The notes beneath the pieces were generated by a model. It was not told the DNA's origin, ran no database searches, and saw only the letters and a program-made list of their open reading frames with translations. DNA of 31,272 nucleotides from a virus, in the IMG/VR virus record IMGVR_UViG_3300033150_002199, positions 1 to 31,272 of that record; one strand, given 5' to 3'. The position numbers and the translations under genes were made by a program. Shown one piece after another: positions 1 to 13,189 of this stretch; position 1 is the stretch's first letter, and each line of letters starts with the position of its first letter.

Positions 1-657
1 TGCATATTGTTTTTGTAAAAACATTACACTATCAAAATCAGGCGTTGTACCATCAGGATATGTATAATCAGAAAATAAGGTCTTTAAGAACTCTCTATCA
101 AATATCGATACGTTTGTAAAGGGACTATTATGACAAAGAATCCCATTGGATGCAAAGAAATTTTCGTTCGTATCTACGCTAATATCATAGACATACTCGG
201 GTTGTTGCTCATCGAAAGCTTTTACGGATGCAACAACATCTTCAACTCCATCACCCAACATCACTGAAAATCGATTTGATTCGTGTGGTGCCGCGGTAGA
301 TAAAGATCCATCATTATTTTTATAGAATAAACTATGATCCTCGGTAACATTAATACTCCGTCCATCAACAAATTCAACCCGCACAACAGGATTATTCCGC
401 TCATGTCTAATTCCAGCGGTAACCCGTCGCATTTCCACATTACCATTTTGCCTGTTCGCCGATGCGACATATATTTCTTCGGTAATCGGTCCGGTGTTTG
501 CATCAACAAATTCGCCAATTGGTATTTCTTGTGCTTCTAATTGAGTTATTTCGACATCAAATTCATCGTCGCCACATACATCTTCAAATTCACCATTTGA
601 ATAGAAGAAACGAAACTTATTATTACTAAGAGGCGATACACTCACAATCTCCGGCAT
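1..657 (-). CDS. nrdD: Intein C-fragment fused to C-terminal part of class III ribonucleotide reductase (partial, runs off window)
   Basis: This is the second half of a fractured nrdD gene. Residues 1-177 are an intein C-terminal fragment and residues 178 onward are reductase, starting SPFTNVSIFDREFLKTLF, a stretch typical of NrdD. The gene continues past base 1, so the glycyl-radical end is outside the window. The start is ATG at 657 with an AAGGAAG-type ribosome site just upstream. The frame is closed by a TAA seven codons upstream of that ATG, so this is not simply a continuation of an earlier ORF. The start overlaps the end of the HNH gene by 32 bases, which suggests translational coupling. 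NrdD reduces ribonucleoside triphosphates using a glycyl radical made by NrdG; no nrdG is seen here. The protein must presumably trans-splice with the product of 1972-2853. Confidence 0.9.
   Translation of the reverse strand, partial: MPEIVSVSPLSNNKFRFFYSNGEFEDVCGDDEFDVEITQLEAQEIPIGEFVDANTGPITEEIYVASANRQNGNVEMRRVTAGIRHERNNPVVRVEFVDGRSINVTEDHSLFYKNNDGSLSTAAPHESNRFSVMLGDGVEDVVASVKAFDEQQPEYVYDISVDTNENFFASNGILCHNSPFTNVSIFDREFLKTLFSDYTYPDGTTPDFDSVMFLQKQYA
127..657 (-). other. Split intein, C-terminal fragment (177 residues)
   Basis: Hint/intein signatures are visible in this reading frame. IPIGEFVD at residues 45-52 resembles the strand after block A. A block B-like VTEDHSLF lies at residues 104-111 and holds the TxxH histidine. 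The C-terminal splice region reads VYDISVD then NFFASNGILCHN at residues 156-177, ending in the His-Asn pair needed for Asn cyclisation. The next residue is Ser, a valid +1 nucleophile, and it starts the NrdD extein. No endonuclease domain is embedded. With the 40-residue partner the total is about 217 residues, in the range of a mini-intein with some extra sequence. Confidence 0.88.
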
Positions 658-1909
658 ACCTTTTCTTCCTTTCAGTTAGTAATTCTATAAAATACTCTGT
701 ATTTTTGCAATTTGTTTTGCTGTGGCAACTATTACATAACCACACCAAATTGTCTGGATTATTATTTCTCTTATTATAATCAATATGATGCAAATGAAAC
801 TTCCCAGAATAATTATTATAATGAACCCCACATAATGCACATTGAAAATTTTGTTCTTGCAACAATTTCAGCCTCATATTAGCGTTGCGAAACTCAGGAT
901 CATAACCACCGGCGCGATAATGCTTTGCATATTCATAAAATTCTTCTTTTGACTTTATTTGTTTATGCCAATGCATCTTGGCATATGCCTGCAATGCTTC
1001 TAACTCCGTATCATATCTTTTCTTAAACCAATCCAACGAATACTGCCCTTTAAGTTTATTCAAAAAAGATTGCCATCGTCTTCTTCCCTCCTCTTCACCA
1101 TATTTTTCAATAAGCGTCTCTTTGGACAAGTAGACTGCGCGCTTTGTTTCCTTATATTTGCGTGTTCCCTCTACTACTCCATATCTATTAATATACTTTT
1201 CCAGACTCCAACCACACTTCTCGGAAATTGTTTTGATACGTTGTTTATATAAAATTCTTGCAATGTCTGTGTCCCCATATTTGTTTATATATGCTTGAAG
1301 CCGAGGACTACATGCCATGCGCATCGCCTCATATCGTCTTCTTCCCTCCTCTTCACCATATCTTTCGATAAATCCCTCTTTACTTAGTGCTCGGCGTATT
1401 TTGGCACATTGCTCCATATACCTCTTTGGCCCGAGGGCGGAGCCATATTTAGATATAAAATATTTAAGGCTACCACGATCATATATTTTTGAATTAAATC
1501 GTTTCGTTCCTTCTTCAACTCCATATCTATCAATATAACCGCTCAGGGACGCCGCATATGACTTATTTACACGCATCAGCATACGTCGGTTTAGACCTTC
1601 TTTTTCTCCATATCTATCTATATACCATTTCCGGGTGCCTACACCTGACATTATCTTGCTCATCAAATCGCAATAGTCTTTATCACGCACCCACGTCGCT
1701 GCACTACATGAAATATTCCCACATGTTCGCCAATATCCGCGCGTCAATCCATCAAATCGGCATTTCTTACCACATTTTGGACAATATTCAACCTCGCCCA
1801 TATATTTGAGATAATAATCCTCGACTGTTATATTATGTGTTCGAGTTAAATGGGTAGCCAATTTTTCAAACGTTTTGCCACATATTTCGCATTTAATTTT
1901 GTTCTTCAA
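626..1909 (-). CDS. HNH homing-type endonuclease with zinc fingers and YG repeats, lying inside the nrdD break
   Basis: This is probably a free-standing homing endonuclease. The N-terminus has a C2H2-like finger (CEIC at 7-10, then His20 and His25) and a second cysteine cluster (CPKC at 43-46, C50, C63, C68). The middle holds about eight repeats of the form Y-I-x-R/K-Y-G-x-E-E-G-x-x-R, spaced roughly 25-32 residues, near 96, 125, 151, 180, 207, 239, 266 and 294. These probably read DNA. The C-terminus is an HNH nuclease: CALC at 357-360, HLHH at 372-375, NPDN around 384 and CNSCH at 392-396. The start is TTG at 1909, with AAGGAG about 8 bases upstream; no ATG lies near. It sits between the two nrdD halves and overlaps the second by 32 bases, so it most likely spreads the fractured arrangement. 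The target site is not known. Confidence 0.9.
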   Translation of the reverse strand: MKNKIKCEICGKTFEKLATHLTRTHNITVEDYYLKYMGEVEYCPKCGKKCRFDGLTRGYWRTCGNISCSAATWVRDKDYCDLMSKIMSGVGTRKWYIDRYGEKEGLNRRMLMRVNKSYAASLSGYIDRYGVEEGTKRFNSKIYDRGSLKYFISKYGSALGPKRYMEQCAKIRRALSKEGFIERYGEEEGRRRYEAMRMACSPRLQAYINKYGDTDIARILYKQRIKTISEKCGWSLEKYINRYGVVEGTRKYKETKRAVYLSKETLIEKYGEEEGRRRWQSFLNKLKGQYSLDWFKKRYDTELEALQAYAKMHWHKQIKSKEEFYEYAKHYRAGGYDPEFRNANMRLKLLQEQNFQCALCGVHYNNYSGKFHLHHIDYNKRNNNPDNLVWLCNSCHSKTNCKNTEYFIELLTERKKRYAGDCECIAS

Positions 1910-1971
1910 AGTAATTTCTCCTTTTTAGGTATAAATTAGCCCTTCCGAACTAATCAGGAGAAATTCTTAAA
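1910..1971 (-). promoter_or_regulatory. Short spacer between nrdD N-half and HNH gene
   Basis: The 62-base gap carries a weak imperfect hairpin (ATTAG...CTAAT on the minus strand) and, close to the HNH gene, an AAGGAG ribosome site. There is no run of T after the hairpin, so a rho-independent terminator is not supported. The spacer would let the HNH gene be read on the nrdD transcript. Confidence 0.4.
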
Positions 1972-2853
1972 TTATTTCACAATAACTATTTTATTTCTAT
2001 TCCGATATTCCTCATAGATTTCCTTTGCAGTAGAACGTCGTCTAATTGTATTACGAGGAAAATAGAATGTAATTTTCTCGCGAGGCGCCAAGCTCTGGGC
2101 ATTTCTAAACGGCCAATTAACGGAAAAAACAAAATTCTGTAATCTATTTTTTACCCATTTACCAAGAGTGCTATCTTGTGCATTTCCAGAAGAAAATATT
2201 GATGCATCCGCATCCCATCTATCCCTATATTTCTCTCCAAACTCTTTACGTAGAAAATAATCCAAATCAATAAGAAATGTTGGCAGTGCAACAGCTCCGG
2301 CAATCTGATTTGAGATATATGCTACCATTTGGATTACGATATTAATATATGAGTCTGGGTGTTGTGCAGGTTTAACATCAAACATTCCTACAGCAAACGA
2401 CACGCCCTCATATAACAGTGGTTGAAGTGAAAAGGCATAGCAATATGGACGGGTTGGATAAGTCCAAAAATCATTAACGAATATTTCCCCAGTTATAAGT
2501 TTTTCTATAATACGCTTTGCTCGCTCGGAGCCTTCTGCCTTCATAATTTGCTTATAGAGATAAAAATATGCATTAATATTTTGATGTGCTTTTGATATTT
2601 CGGTAGAAAATTGATCTACCGTCTTCTCTTTAACATTTGCATTAGGATCTACAGAGATATCAGCAACCGCACCGCTGTTATTAAAAAAGTCTTTCGAAAA
2701 CGACACAATATCAAGTTGCGATTCAGATATTCCACTTATTTTTAATAGTTCTTCTCCATGTTGTCTTCCTATTTTTGCAATATATTCTAAGAATGATTGC
2801 ATTCCGCGGCGAAGAACTTCATCAGAATGTATATTGATATTTTTATACATCAA
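1972..2853 (-). CDS. nrdD: Class III ribonucleotide reductase, N-terminal part, fused to split-intein N-fragment
   Basis: Residues 1-253 are the N-extein of an anaerobic ribonucleoside-triphosphate reductase. Recognisable stretches are NDFWTYPTRPYCYAFSLQPL (holding the conserved active-site cysteine region), VIQMVAYISNQIAGAVALPT and FVFSVNWPFRNAQ. In intact relatives the last of these runs directly into (Q)SPFTNVS. Here the reading frame leaves the reductase after Gln253 and continues for 40 intein residues to a TAA. The matching SPFTNVS appears only in the ORF at 1-657. The gene overlaps the RNase H gene upstream by 11 bases and is probably in the same operon. On its own this protein cannot be an active reductase, because it lacks the glycyl-radical half. 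Confidence 0.9.
   Translation of the reverse strand: MMYKNINIHSDEVLRRGMQSFLEYIAKIGRQHGEELLKISGISESQLDIVSFSKDFFNNSGAVADISVDPNANVKEKTVDQFSTEISKAHQNINAYFYLYKQIMKAEGSERAKRIIEKLITGEIFVNDFWTYPTRPYCYAFSLQPLLYEGVSFAVGMFDVKPAQHPDSYINIVIQMVAYISNQIAGAVALPTFLIDLDYFLRKEFGEKYRDRWDADASIFSSGNAQDSTLGKWVKNRLQNFVFSVNWPFRNAQSLAPREKITFYFPRNTIRRRSTAKEIYEEYRNRNKIVIVK
1975..2094 (-). other. Split intein, N-terminal fragment (40 residues, Ser1)
   Basis: The last 40 residues of the NrdD N-half, starting SLAPREKITFYFPRN and ending NRNKIVIVK, do not belong to the reductase. They begin exactly at the position where the extein resumes in the other ORF (NAQ before, SPF after). The layout, a nucleophile followed by Leu and then a beta strand, fits intein block A with Ser in place of the usual Cys. 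The fragment stops before block B, so it is far shorter than the roughly 100-residue N-fragment of canonical split inteins. The block A match alone would be weak; the junction and the clear C-fragment carry the call. Confidence 0.8.
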
Positions 2854-10882: not shown

Positions 10883-11323
10883 ATGTTTAGGATTCGAAAG
10901 CGCTTTAGGATAGAATATGCGCATGTTTTGGAGAGCTCTTATACTGAAAAATGCCAATCTATCCATGGCCATTCTGGAATAATTGATGTATATTTAACGT
11001 CAGCACAATGCAATAAAGATGGTATGGTTGTGGATTTCGGCAAAGTTAAAGAGGCTATTAGTAGTATAATAGATAAATATGATCATGCACTTTTGCTTCA
11101 CGAAGATAAGGTTGATAAGTACAAAAGCCAACTATCAGATAGCAAAAAGATTGTTTCTGTGCCTGGAAACCCAACGGCAGAATTATTGGCATGCCTTTTG
11201 TTTATGGAAATAAAAACAGAATTGTTACGCATGGAAACATTGGATCCAGATGTAAATAATGTTCGGTTGGAGCGAGTTCGATTTCATGAGACCGAAAGTG
11301 GCTGGGCAGAATACTGGCAATAG
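10883..11323 (+). CDS. queD: QueD, 6-carboxy-tetrahydropterin synthase
   Basis: This enzyme converts dihydroneopterin triphosphate to 6-carboxytetrahydropterin, the second step towards preQ0. Its 146 residues show zinc ligands H14 (EYAH) and H28/H30 (IHGHS), catalytic C24, the VVDFG segment at 49-53, DHA at 67-69, PTAE, and a C-terminal HETESGWAEYW region. AAGGAG sits ahead of ATG 10883. It is the first gene of the rightward operon, and folE and dpdA follow, pointing to 7-deazaguanine synthesis for DNA, not folate. Confidence 0.93.
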   Translation: MFRIRKRFRIEYAHVLESSYTEKCQSIHGHSGIIDVYLTSAQCNKDGMVVDFGKVKEAISSIIDKYDHALLLHEDKVDKYKSQLSDSKKIVSVPGNPTAELLACLLFMEIKTELLRMETLDPDVNNVRLERVRFHETESGWAEYWQ

Positions 11324-11338
11324 AAAGCGAGATAGAAT

Positions 11339-11929
11339 ATGATAAATCCCGCACATGAAAAGACGACGTCAATAAATAAAAGTCGCATAGCAGGGCTAAT
11401 GCGGCAGATTATCGAAACTGGACTTGGTTTGGATATAAAAGACCCTAATCTTAGGGAAACTCCTGAACGTATAGCAAAGATGTATATTGATGAATGGTTT
11501 AGATCGTTATATGAGGATCCACCCAAAATAACTGTTTTTCCGAACGAAGATAATTATAATCAAATGATTGTATCTGGGCCCATCCATGTCAAATCAGTTT
11601 GCTCGCATCATTTTGTTCCATTTACGGGAATTTGTTATGTTGGATATATTCCAAAGAATTTTTATATTGGACTTAGCAAATTAAGTAGAATTGTGCATTA
11701 CTTTATGCGCATGCCACAGCTCCAGGAGCGAATGACAGACCAAATAGCTACATTTTTAGATACTACAGTGTCGCCTCTTGGCTGTGGAGTTTATATCAAA
11801 GCCCAACATGCTTGCATGACTACACGTGGTGTAGAAGAGCCAGATGCGTTTATGATTACTACGGCACTCAAAGGTATTTTTCTTGAAAATCCCGCAGTAA
11901 AGCAAGAATTTTTATCATACACCAAATAA
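11339..11929 (+). CDS. folE: GTP cyclohydrolase I
   Basis: FolE opens GTP to dihydroneopterin triphosphate, the first step of both folate and 7-deazaguanine synthesis. The family signatures are clear: RETPERIAKMY at 39-49, SVCSHHFVPF at 86-95 with zinc ligands C88 and H91, GLSKLSRIV at 111-119, PQLQERMTDQIA, and AQHACMTTRG at 155-164 with the third zinc ligand C159. Length (196) is typical. The ribosome site is weak (a GCGAGA stretch), so translation may depend on queD, which ends 15 bases upstream. Confidence 0.95.
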   Translation: MINPAHEKTTSINKSRIAGLMRQIIETGLGLDIKDPNLRETPERIAKMYIDEWFRSLYEDPPKITVFPNEDNYNQMIVSGPIHVKSVCSHHFVPFTGICYVGYIPKNFYIGLSKLSRIVHYFMRMPQLQERMTDQIATFLDTTVSPLGCGVYIKAQHACMTTRGVEEPDAFMITTALKGIFLENPAVKQEFLSYTK

Positions 11930-11944
11930 TACAAGGGGAATTGA

Positions 11945-13189
11945 ATGAAAAATCTCATTTATGTGCCATCTATAAGTGTTGGAACAATGGTTCTGTGTAT
12001 ACGTGGAGACCGTAGGTTTGCCAATGAACGATTTCGTTTTTATAATAAAGGATCCAGTCCAATTTATCATCCGCACATAATGATTTCCATGGCTTATTGT
12101 TTCGATCTTCATGGAAAAAATCTTAGAGATGTTTATAAAATGGATGAGGATGTTGTAGTATATGGAGATAGTGGTGGATTTCAAGTAATCTCATCATCCA
12201 AAGATACATTAAAAAATTTAACACCAGAAAATATATTAAATATGCTTGAGACGCATTGTAATATTGGATTGATATTGGATATTCCCCCAAAACGACCATG
12301 GAATCATGATAGCAGTGAGATTGAATATTATAATTATGCACTACAAACGACATATAATAATGCTAAGTACTTTTATGAAAATAGACAAGGTAAATGTAAA
12401 TTATTGAATGTTCTCCAAGGCCGACCTGGAGCCGGACTTAAAAAGTGGTATCATACCATGAAGAATTTTGATTTTGATGGATGGGCAGTAGCAGCAAATG
12501 AGACCTTGTCCGTAAAATCTATTCAGAAACCACAAACGGCGGCATTAACAGGAACTCAGAAAACGGACGGCCACGTACTTGCAGATATATTTTATCTAAT
12601 GCAAAATGGAGAGTTTGAAAAGTCAAATAACAAATACTTGCATATTCTCGGCGTTGGATCAATGTATCATATTGTGACTTTTATATTTTTCCAACATATG
12701 TTAAACCGAATGGGATATGATATACAAGTCACGGTTGACGCATCTAATGTAAGTTTGATATCCGGATATGGTAGGGCAATTATTGCCGATGCTGTGGTTA
12801 ATATGATTCGATATGATAGTTGTATCGATTATAGCTCAGTATATGACATGCCGTTGCCTTGCGATTGCCCTGTATGCCGCGACCTCTTAATAAGTGATAT
12901 ATCAGATTTTGGAACTCATCAATATGCGTACATCACACTTCATAATCTGTATGTCCAGCTCCGGCGCATCGAATTCTTTAATAGATTTTTTGATATAACA
13001 ACGCGCCTTGGAGAGTCGGGATTTGGTATGCTTACGAATATATCGAATAAGACAGTAAAGAAACTTAGGCTGATCTCAGAGGCAATACAATCGAAAACAC
13101 CATATGATACCTTTATAGCCAATGCGTCTGAAGTATTTAGGACCACAGAATCTGTGCAAACCAACATTGATACGAGTAGTTTGTTTTAA
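11945..13189 (+). CDS. dpdA: DpdA-like DNA guanine transglycosylase (7-deazaguanine insertion into DNA)
   Basis: This is a homologue of tRNA-guanine transglycosylase of the phage DpdA type, which exchanges guanine in DNA for a preQ0-derived base. Visible features are YGDSGGFQ at 73-80 with catalytic D75, LDIPP near 111-115, LLNVLQGRP near 153-161, VTVDASN at 262-268 with a candidate second catalytic Asp, and a zinc site CDCPVC at 306-311 followed by His around 325-335. The 414-residue length fits phage DpdA. queD and folE lie upstream, but queE and queC are not in the window. The polymerase gene starts 13 bases downstream. The last residues are DTSSLF, a possible sliding-clamp tag shared with three other proteins here. 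Confidence 0.85.
   Translation: MKNLIYVPSISVGTMVLCIRGDRRFANERFRFYNKGSSPIYHPHIMISMAYCFDLHGKNLRDVYKMDEDVVVYGDSGGFQVISSSKDTLKNLTPENILNMLETHCNIGLILDIPPKRPWNHDSSEIEYYNYALQTTYNNAKYFYENRQGKCKLLNVLQGRPGAGLKKWYHTMKNFDFDGWAVAANETLSVKSIQKPQTAALTGTQKTDGHVLADIFYLMQNGEFEKSNNKYLHILGVGSMYHIVTFIFFQHMLNRMGYDIQVTVDASNVSLISGYGRAIIADAVVNMIRYDSCIDYSSVYDMPLPCDCPVCRDLLISDISDFGTHQYAYITLHNLYVQLRRIEFFNRFFDITTRLGESGFGMLTNISNKTVKKLRLISEAIQSKTPYDTFIANASEVFRTTESVQTNIDTSSLF

Follow-up and report, generated by a model that had tools for sequence, protein, structure and literature searches.

A phage nrdD gene fractured by a free-standing HNH endonuclease gene carries the parts of an atypically split Ser1 intein that probably acts by trans-splicing

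We examined an nrdD gene, coding for a class III ribonucleotide reductase, at the beginning of a 31,272-base stretch of viral DNA (the window), which comprises the first 31,272 bases of the 67,579-base record IMGVR_UViG_3300033150_002199, so that window base 1 is record base 1. The gene is divided into two complementary halves, each of which carries part of an intein that belongs, by its motifs, to the class 1, Ser1/Ser+1 subgroup; the break between them is occupied by the gene of a free-standing HNH endonuclease. The most economical reading of this arrangement, and one that we consider likely on the sequence evidence, is that the two intein parts restore NrdD by trans-splicing via oxyester intermediates. 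The locus consists of three open reading frames (ORFs), with no frameshifts or internal stops:

1972–2853, minus strand: N-ORF, 293 residues, comprising NrdD residues 1–253 and a 40-residue tail; stop codon at 1972–1974
626–1909, minus strand: HNH ORF, the free-standing endonuclease gene, 427 residues, TTG start; N-terminal Ros/MucR-like zinc finger, eight repeats and C-terminal HNH
1–657, minus strand: C-ORF, 219 residues, open at the contig end; 177 residues (127–657) followed by extein (1–126)

The two NrdD portions within these frames (the exteins) are as follows:

2095–2853, minus strand: NrdD N-extein, 253 residues ending in NWPFRNAQ; PF13597 and PRK08271
1–126, minus strand: NrdD C-extein, its first 42 residues (SPFTNVSIFDR...), truncated by the contig end; PRK08271 profile positions 222–266, E 6.7e-13

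The N-ORF matches PF13597 (E 1.6e-21) and PRK08271 (E 1.8e-45), the latter over profile positions 10–232 and overrunning a few residues into the tail; the same profile continues on the C-ORF, beginning a few residues within the end of the intein. Identity to intact phage NrdDs is 38–39% and extends up to residue 253 of the N-ORF. The junction reads ...NWPFRNAQ/SPFTNVSIFDR (slashes mark splice junctions), and the equivalent region of the uninterrupted NrdD of phage ProddE reads ...NWEFRGNQSPFTNVSLYDR. Most of the 66 NrdD loci that we fetched are gapless through this junction, as in ProddE. Because intact relatives pass the junction without gaps, the exteins neither lose nor duplicate residues, and by alignment the two halves of the fractured gene are complementary to the residue. 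An earlier reading of the locus from sequence only had joined NAQ to SPFTNVS as the expected NrdD sequence and proposed alignment with intact NrdDs as a check; the alignment agrees with that junction.

The tail of the N-ORF begins directly after the last extein residue:

1975–2094, minus strand: IntN (SLAPREKITF...KIVIVK), 40 residues; gapless match to the NrdD inteins of loci L107, L119 and L126 (p 1.8e-4 to 1.2e-3); coding-like codon usage
2092–2094, minus strand: Ser1 codon AGC, the predicted nucleophile, directly after the extein Gln; Ser1 is also found in L118, L035 and L107 at the equivalent NrdD site

Curated profiles fail to detect this 40-residue tail, and relatives were therefore needed for comparison. 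Three NrdD inteins, which are among the closest sequences, share with that of the window the insertion site, Ser1 and motif NX. The first (L118:2967-6284), in the NrdD of a Spirochaetia metagenome-assembled genome, is a contiguous Ser1 LAGLIDADG intein at the Q/S site, ending AHN/SAFSNLS. The second (L035:6835-8195), on a viral contig, is a Q/S-site Ser1 LAGLIDADG intein ending AHN/SAF, with a frame break before its C-terminal block. The third (L107:544-5436) is one of two inteins in a viral-contig NrdD, a Ser1 intein located at RGGQ/SIKGCETIYVYN... with Thr at +1. Unlike the split intein of the window, all three are undivided, include a LAGLIDADG-type endonuclease region and lack an HNH gene within the intein. 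The C-terminal block of L035 is out of frame with its LAGLIDADG part, which could reflect a frameshift, a sequencing error or another split.

In ungapped comparisons with the register fixed at Ser1 (p values drawn from 11,290 peptide windows), the tail matched the same-site L107 intein best, with 11 of 40 residues identical (p = 1.8e-4). The Ser1 inteins of L119, L120, L121 and L126, located at another NrdD site (MH/S), matched it with p = 5e-4 to 3e-3. The 40 residues after NWPFRNAQ, previously proposed to be a Ser1 intein fragment, are thus intein-like by gapless similarity to NrdD inteins. Short-fragment tblastn searches with the 40-residue tail and with C-ORF residues 1–38 gave nothing significant, pattern scans for HN/SPFTN across viral contigs gave chance matches only, and scans with single sequences turned up no close relatives.

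The remainder of the intein splicing domain is located on the C-ORF:

127–468, minus strand: IntC core, Hint residues 64–177, ending ILCHN; PF14890, TIGR01443 and Foldseek; z 14–15 to the L118 and L107 inteins
403–411, minus strand: motif NX, Ile-Arg-His (Arg84-His85), with Glu75 (433–435) in the preceding strand
334–345, minus strand: motif N3 / block B, Thr-Glu-Asp-His, by sequence; aligned with VTEDHSLF of L107
184–186, minus strand: motif C2 / block F, Asp158 (YVYDISVD), by sequence; kept in aligned related inteins
124–132, minus strand: C-terminal splice site, His176-Asn177 and Ser+1, by sequence; L035 and L118 both have AHN/SAF at the equivalent NrdD site

The C-ORF matches the intein splicing domain PF14890 with 57 bits (cut-off 35.8) and also TIGR01443. 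All 50 of the 50 Foldseek matches listed for its AlphaFold model (mean predicted local distance difference test score (pLDDT) 58, which is low) are inteins or intein-like, and the VidaL structure 6vgv is among them. The full set of class 1 catalytic residues is present, including the Lys/Arg-His of motif NX. That motif is a signature of Ser1/Ser+1 inteins (PMC10189870), which fits with Ser1 on the N-ORF and Ser+1 on the C-ORF. Profile searches, which had been suggested as a check on the 177-residue fragment ending in ILCHN, therefore bear out its Hint domain; only ∼114 of its residues are needed for that domain, and residues 1–63 are surplus. Joined together, the tail and C-ORF residues 64–177 amount to 154 residues and align without gaps to L107 over its first 95 residues, 28 of which are identical. 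We therefore place the split between block A and block B, with IntN forming the block A side and the C-ORF containing blocks B, F and G, as for atypically split inteins. In the described fractured genes with a free-standing endonuclease, the split typically, though not necessarily, falls at the canonical endonuclease site that separates block B from block F; here the break precedes block B.

The gene within the break encodes a protein that matches phrog_8048 (E 2e-11) and narrowly misses the HNH_3 cut-off (24.2 bits against 24.8; E 2.7e-5). It contains eight repeats of the Y/F-I-x-R/K-Y-G type, each ∼28 residues long, in keeping with the prior description of a 427-codon, eight-repeat HNH gene. 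The gene is present as one copy in the record, and few relatives were found in phage records. As expected for a mobile gene, it is less adapted in codon usage than its neighbors. Its ribosome-binding site lies within a predicted hairpin, a feature reviewed for I-TevI–III, segB and Aeh1 mobE (PMC2988022):

1913–1965, minus strand: RNA hairpin around the HNH Shine-Dalgarno sequence (aaggag); arms 1913–1928 and 1950–1965; fold −19.9 kcal/mol, z −3.1

From these features we infer that an ancestral phage nrdD contained a contiguous Ser1/Ser+1 intein at the Q/S site and was subsequently fractured by a free-standing HNH gene. IntN would supply Ser1 as well as the opening strand and helix of the Hint fold, while IntC residues 64–177 would contribute motif NX, blocks B and F and the terminal His-Asn pair, with Ser at the start of the C-extein. 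The two parts would associate, the N-extein would acylate Ser1, and the acyl group would pass to Ser+1; cyclization of Asn177 would then leave NrdD ligated as ...NAQ-SPFTNVS..., such that the reductase would presumably depend on splicing. The HNH gene may persist as a homing element, with the hairpin over its ribosome-binding site damping translation. Decisive added support for trans-splicing comes from the same-site Ser1 inteins in other NrdDs and from the gapless match of the N-terminal fragment.

Several observations weigh against trans-splicing. The first concerns the N-terminal end of the C-ORF:

469–657, minus strand: C-ORF residues 1–63, surplus region; beta meander (1–30), block-A-like D26-VCGDDEFDV, and IPIGEFVD

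These 63 surplus and partly redundant residues precede the IntC core, alongside an otherwise gapless complement between the tail and residues 64–177. The beta meander is predicted fairly confidently by AlphaFold (pLDDT 75–84), and codon usage is coding-like for residues 1–26. Residues 26–35 (D-VCGDDEFDV) resemble block A with Asp replacing the nucleophile (position-specific scoring matrix p = 5e-4), and do so best against Pol-type Ser1 inteins; these block A statistics, which relied in part on reference intein sequences that were not fetched, are leads rather than proof. The strand is followed by a helix motif, IPIGEFVD, that resembles the corresponding helix of L118 and L035. Residues 1–63 may combine an extra beta module with a duplicate of the intein N-terminal region that lacks the nucleophile, and IntC may therefore hold its own N-terminal Hint region, which would hinder docking of IntN. 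In addition, the tail alone has no family match in curated profiles, and its gapless matches to L118 and L035 are not significant. The contig stops before the bulk of NrdD; since the window begins at record base 1, the protein past 42 C-extein residues is missing from view. Finally, the two AlphaFold runs, which used differing shallow alignments, both gave low confidence (58 and 46). In light of the surplus residues, we regard trans-splicing as likely but unproven.

Two other identities for the surplus region were considered and rejected. A complete cis-intein within the C-ORF, starting from Asp26 or Cys28, is similar in sequence to an intein, but it has no nucleophile that would suit position 1, and AlphaFold leaves residues 26–48 unfolded (at low confidence). 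DUF2442, which the beta meander resembles by eye, gave no profile match.

The same region underlies an alternative in which no ligation occurs: the Hint domain of the C-ORF would be autonomous and nucleophile-less, with Asp26 at position 1, and would cleave only between Asn177 and Ser, leaving the NrdD chains non-covalently associated or inactive. The block-A-like segment is correctly spaced from IPIGEFVD for such a domain, and phage Aeh1 offers a precedent, in that its nrdA is split by mobE and works as separate chains. Against this, Ser1 and the motif NX and block B residues for N-terminal activation are all retained, and the tail is significantly intein-like and complements residues 64–177 without gaps. 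Furthermore, an AlphaFold model of residues 26–219, built with block A rows aligned, shows no Hint strands over residues 26–48 (pLDDT ∼30; overall 46, which is low). We consider this outcome unlikely.

A related possibility, which we find doubtful, is a split intein with overlapping fragments, in which IntN provides Ser1 and residues 1–40 and IntC keeps a nucleophile-dead second copy behind its beta module. If this were so, IntN would have to displace the dead copy before splicing, and the system would be a self-capped trans-splicing switch on an oxygen-sensitive reductase.

The locus could also be a decaying pseudogene, in which insertion of the HNH gene inactivated an nrdD that is no longer maintained. 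The unseen remainder of NrdD and the untidy 63-residue head of the C-ORF would be compatible with decay, but the N-extein, IntC and C-extein use codons as the phage's genes typically do, the catalytic motifs are intact, and frameshifts and stops are absent from all three ORFs. Decay therefore appears improbable.

The block-A-like strand raised the possibility that a complete intein had been interrupted immediately after its first codon, and we therefore tested for an intron nested within the intein; here the 1.5-kb insertion carrying the HNH gene would be removed from the RNA to restore a contiguous Ser1 intein. Joining CAGAGCT/TGG...GATG/TATGT would yield S-L-C-G-D-D-E, and nrdD of other phages is interrupted at the equivalent spot by group I introns, some of which contain HNH genes. 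Rfam scores the intron of L051 at 81.6 bits and that of L091 at 35 bits, short of the gathering score, and the HNH-bearing introns of L095, L073 and L009 were recognized by a GACTA...TAGTC pairing. However, Rfam searches with lax filters of the whole region and of each flank found no group I or group II intron in the insertion. The P7 motif pair, visible in five of five control introns from that spot, does not occur with a workable spacing, as 370 bases separate the two elements, which lie within the HNH ORF. Both flanks are also coding-like, and only ∼65 bases of the gap lie outside ORFs. With neither an Rfam match nor a workable P7 motif pair, we rejected a nested group I or II intron as highly improbable.

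In other phages, the RGxQS stretch of nrdD is an insertion hot spot of group I introns (L051:6641-6888, L091:6555-6809, L095, L073 and L009). The L095, L073 and L009 introns carry HNH ORFs, and Rfam missed all three in the present search.

Additional inteins were encountered during these comparisons. The NrdD inteins of Lak-A1, L003 and L091 were rejected as same-site relatives, as their actual site is SSC/C.... Those of L002, L003 and L091 are further examples at SSC/C, and inteins are found at no fewer than three sites in phage NrdD; the inteins of L043:5890-9213 and L049:4897-8199 occupy another, more N-terminal site (near MPY, ending QHN/CF or QHN/CY). A viral-contig clamp-loader gene (L031:3596-4997) consists of overlapping ORFs with IntN and IntC, a canonical split with no nuclease gene between them. 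Two DNA polymerase C-terminal parts (L106:4935-5906 and L110:4932-5933) start with Met and a short IntC (EYVYDIS...HN/S or HN/T) and are likely split PolB inteins.

Fractured genes containing split inteins and a free-standing homing endonuclease gene (gp41-1, gp41-8, NrdJ-1 and IMPDH-1) were reportedly described by Dassa et al. in 2009 from Global Ocean Sampling (GOS) data. These likewise comprise two complementary host-gene halves with an intein fragment on each and a nuclease gene between. They differ from the window in having Cys1, the usual endonuclease-site split and an IntN of ∼90–100 residues, whereas the locus described here has Ser1, a split preceding block B, a 40-residue IntN and a class III reductase as host. 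AceL-TerL and VidaL are atypically split and, like the window, have a short IntN and a long IntC; unlike it, they are Cys1 inteins, and the host gene of AceL-TerL is a terminase. The PolB16 OarG split intein has an IntN of 15 and an IntC of 168 residues (PMC10189870): it too is Ser1/Ser+1, is atypically split near its N-terminus, and has a long IntC and a motif-NX His. Its IntN is shorter (15 against 40 residues), its host is a DNA polymerase gene, and no surplus head of its IntC has been described.

In phage Aeh1, the HNH gene mobE lies inside nrdA, and the NrdA chains assemble without ligation (PMC2988022). The two systems share an HNH homing endonuclease gene that splits a phage ribonucleotide reductase, with a hairpin on the ribosome-binding site; that of Aeh1 has no intein, and its chains are unligated. 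In Jug phages, nrdD is fragmented in 95 of 104 genomes with endonuclease or Intein_splicing inserts (PMC12363816); there many of the breaks are group I introns.

Split inteins with a nuclease gene in the gap of a fractured gene, atypical splits, fragmented nrdD and split ribonucleotide reductase genes are thus already known. The sequence-only reading had suggested that an nrdD case with an eight-repeat HNH enzyme and Ser at position 1 might be new; endonuclease and intein-domain inserts in nrdD have been reported (PMC12363816). Our literature search found no description of such an intein with contiguous relatives at the same site, nor of an oversized C-terminal fragment.

Elsewhere in the window (10883–13189), QueD-like, GTP cyclohydrolase-like and TGT-like genes (the last with a weak profile match) stand in a row beside a T4-type replication set, and likely represent a 7-deazaguanine pathway.

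Naturally split Ser1/Ser+1 inteins have been called very rare (PMC10189870), and split serine inteins are wanted as protein-ligation tools; the intein of the window, atypically split and with an N-terminal fragment of 40 residues, is a candidate. The contiguous and split inteins at one NrdD site form a pair for studying how split inteins originate. Together with L118, L035, L107 and the introns, the locus shows that a single short stretch of nrdD attracts mobile elements of three kinds: not only inteins and group I introns but also a free-standing HNH gene.

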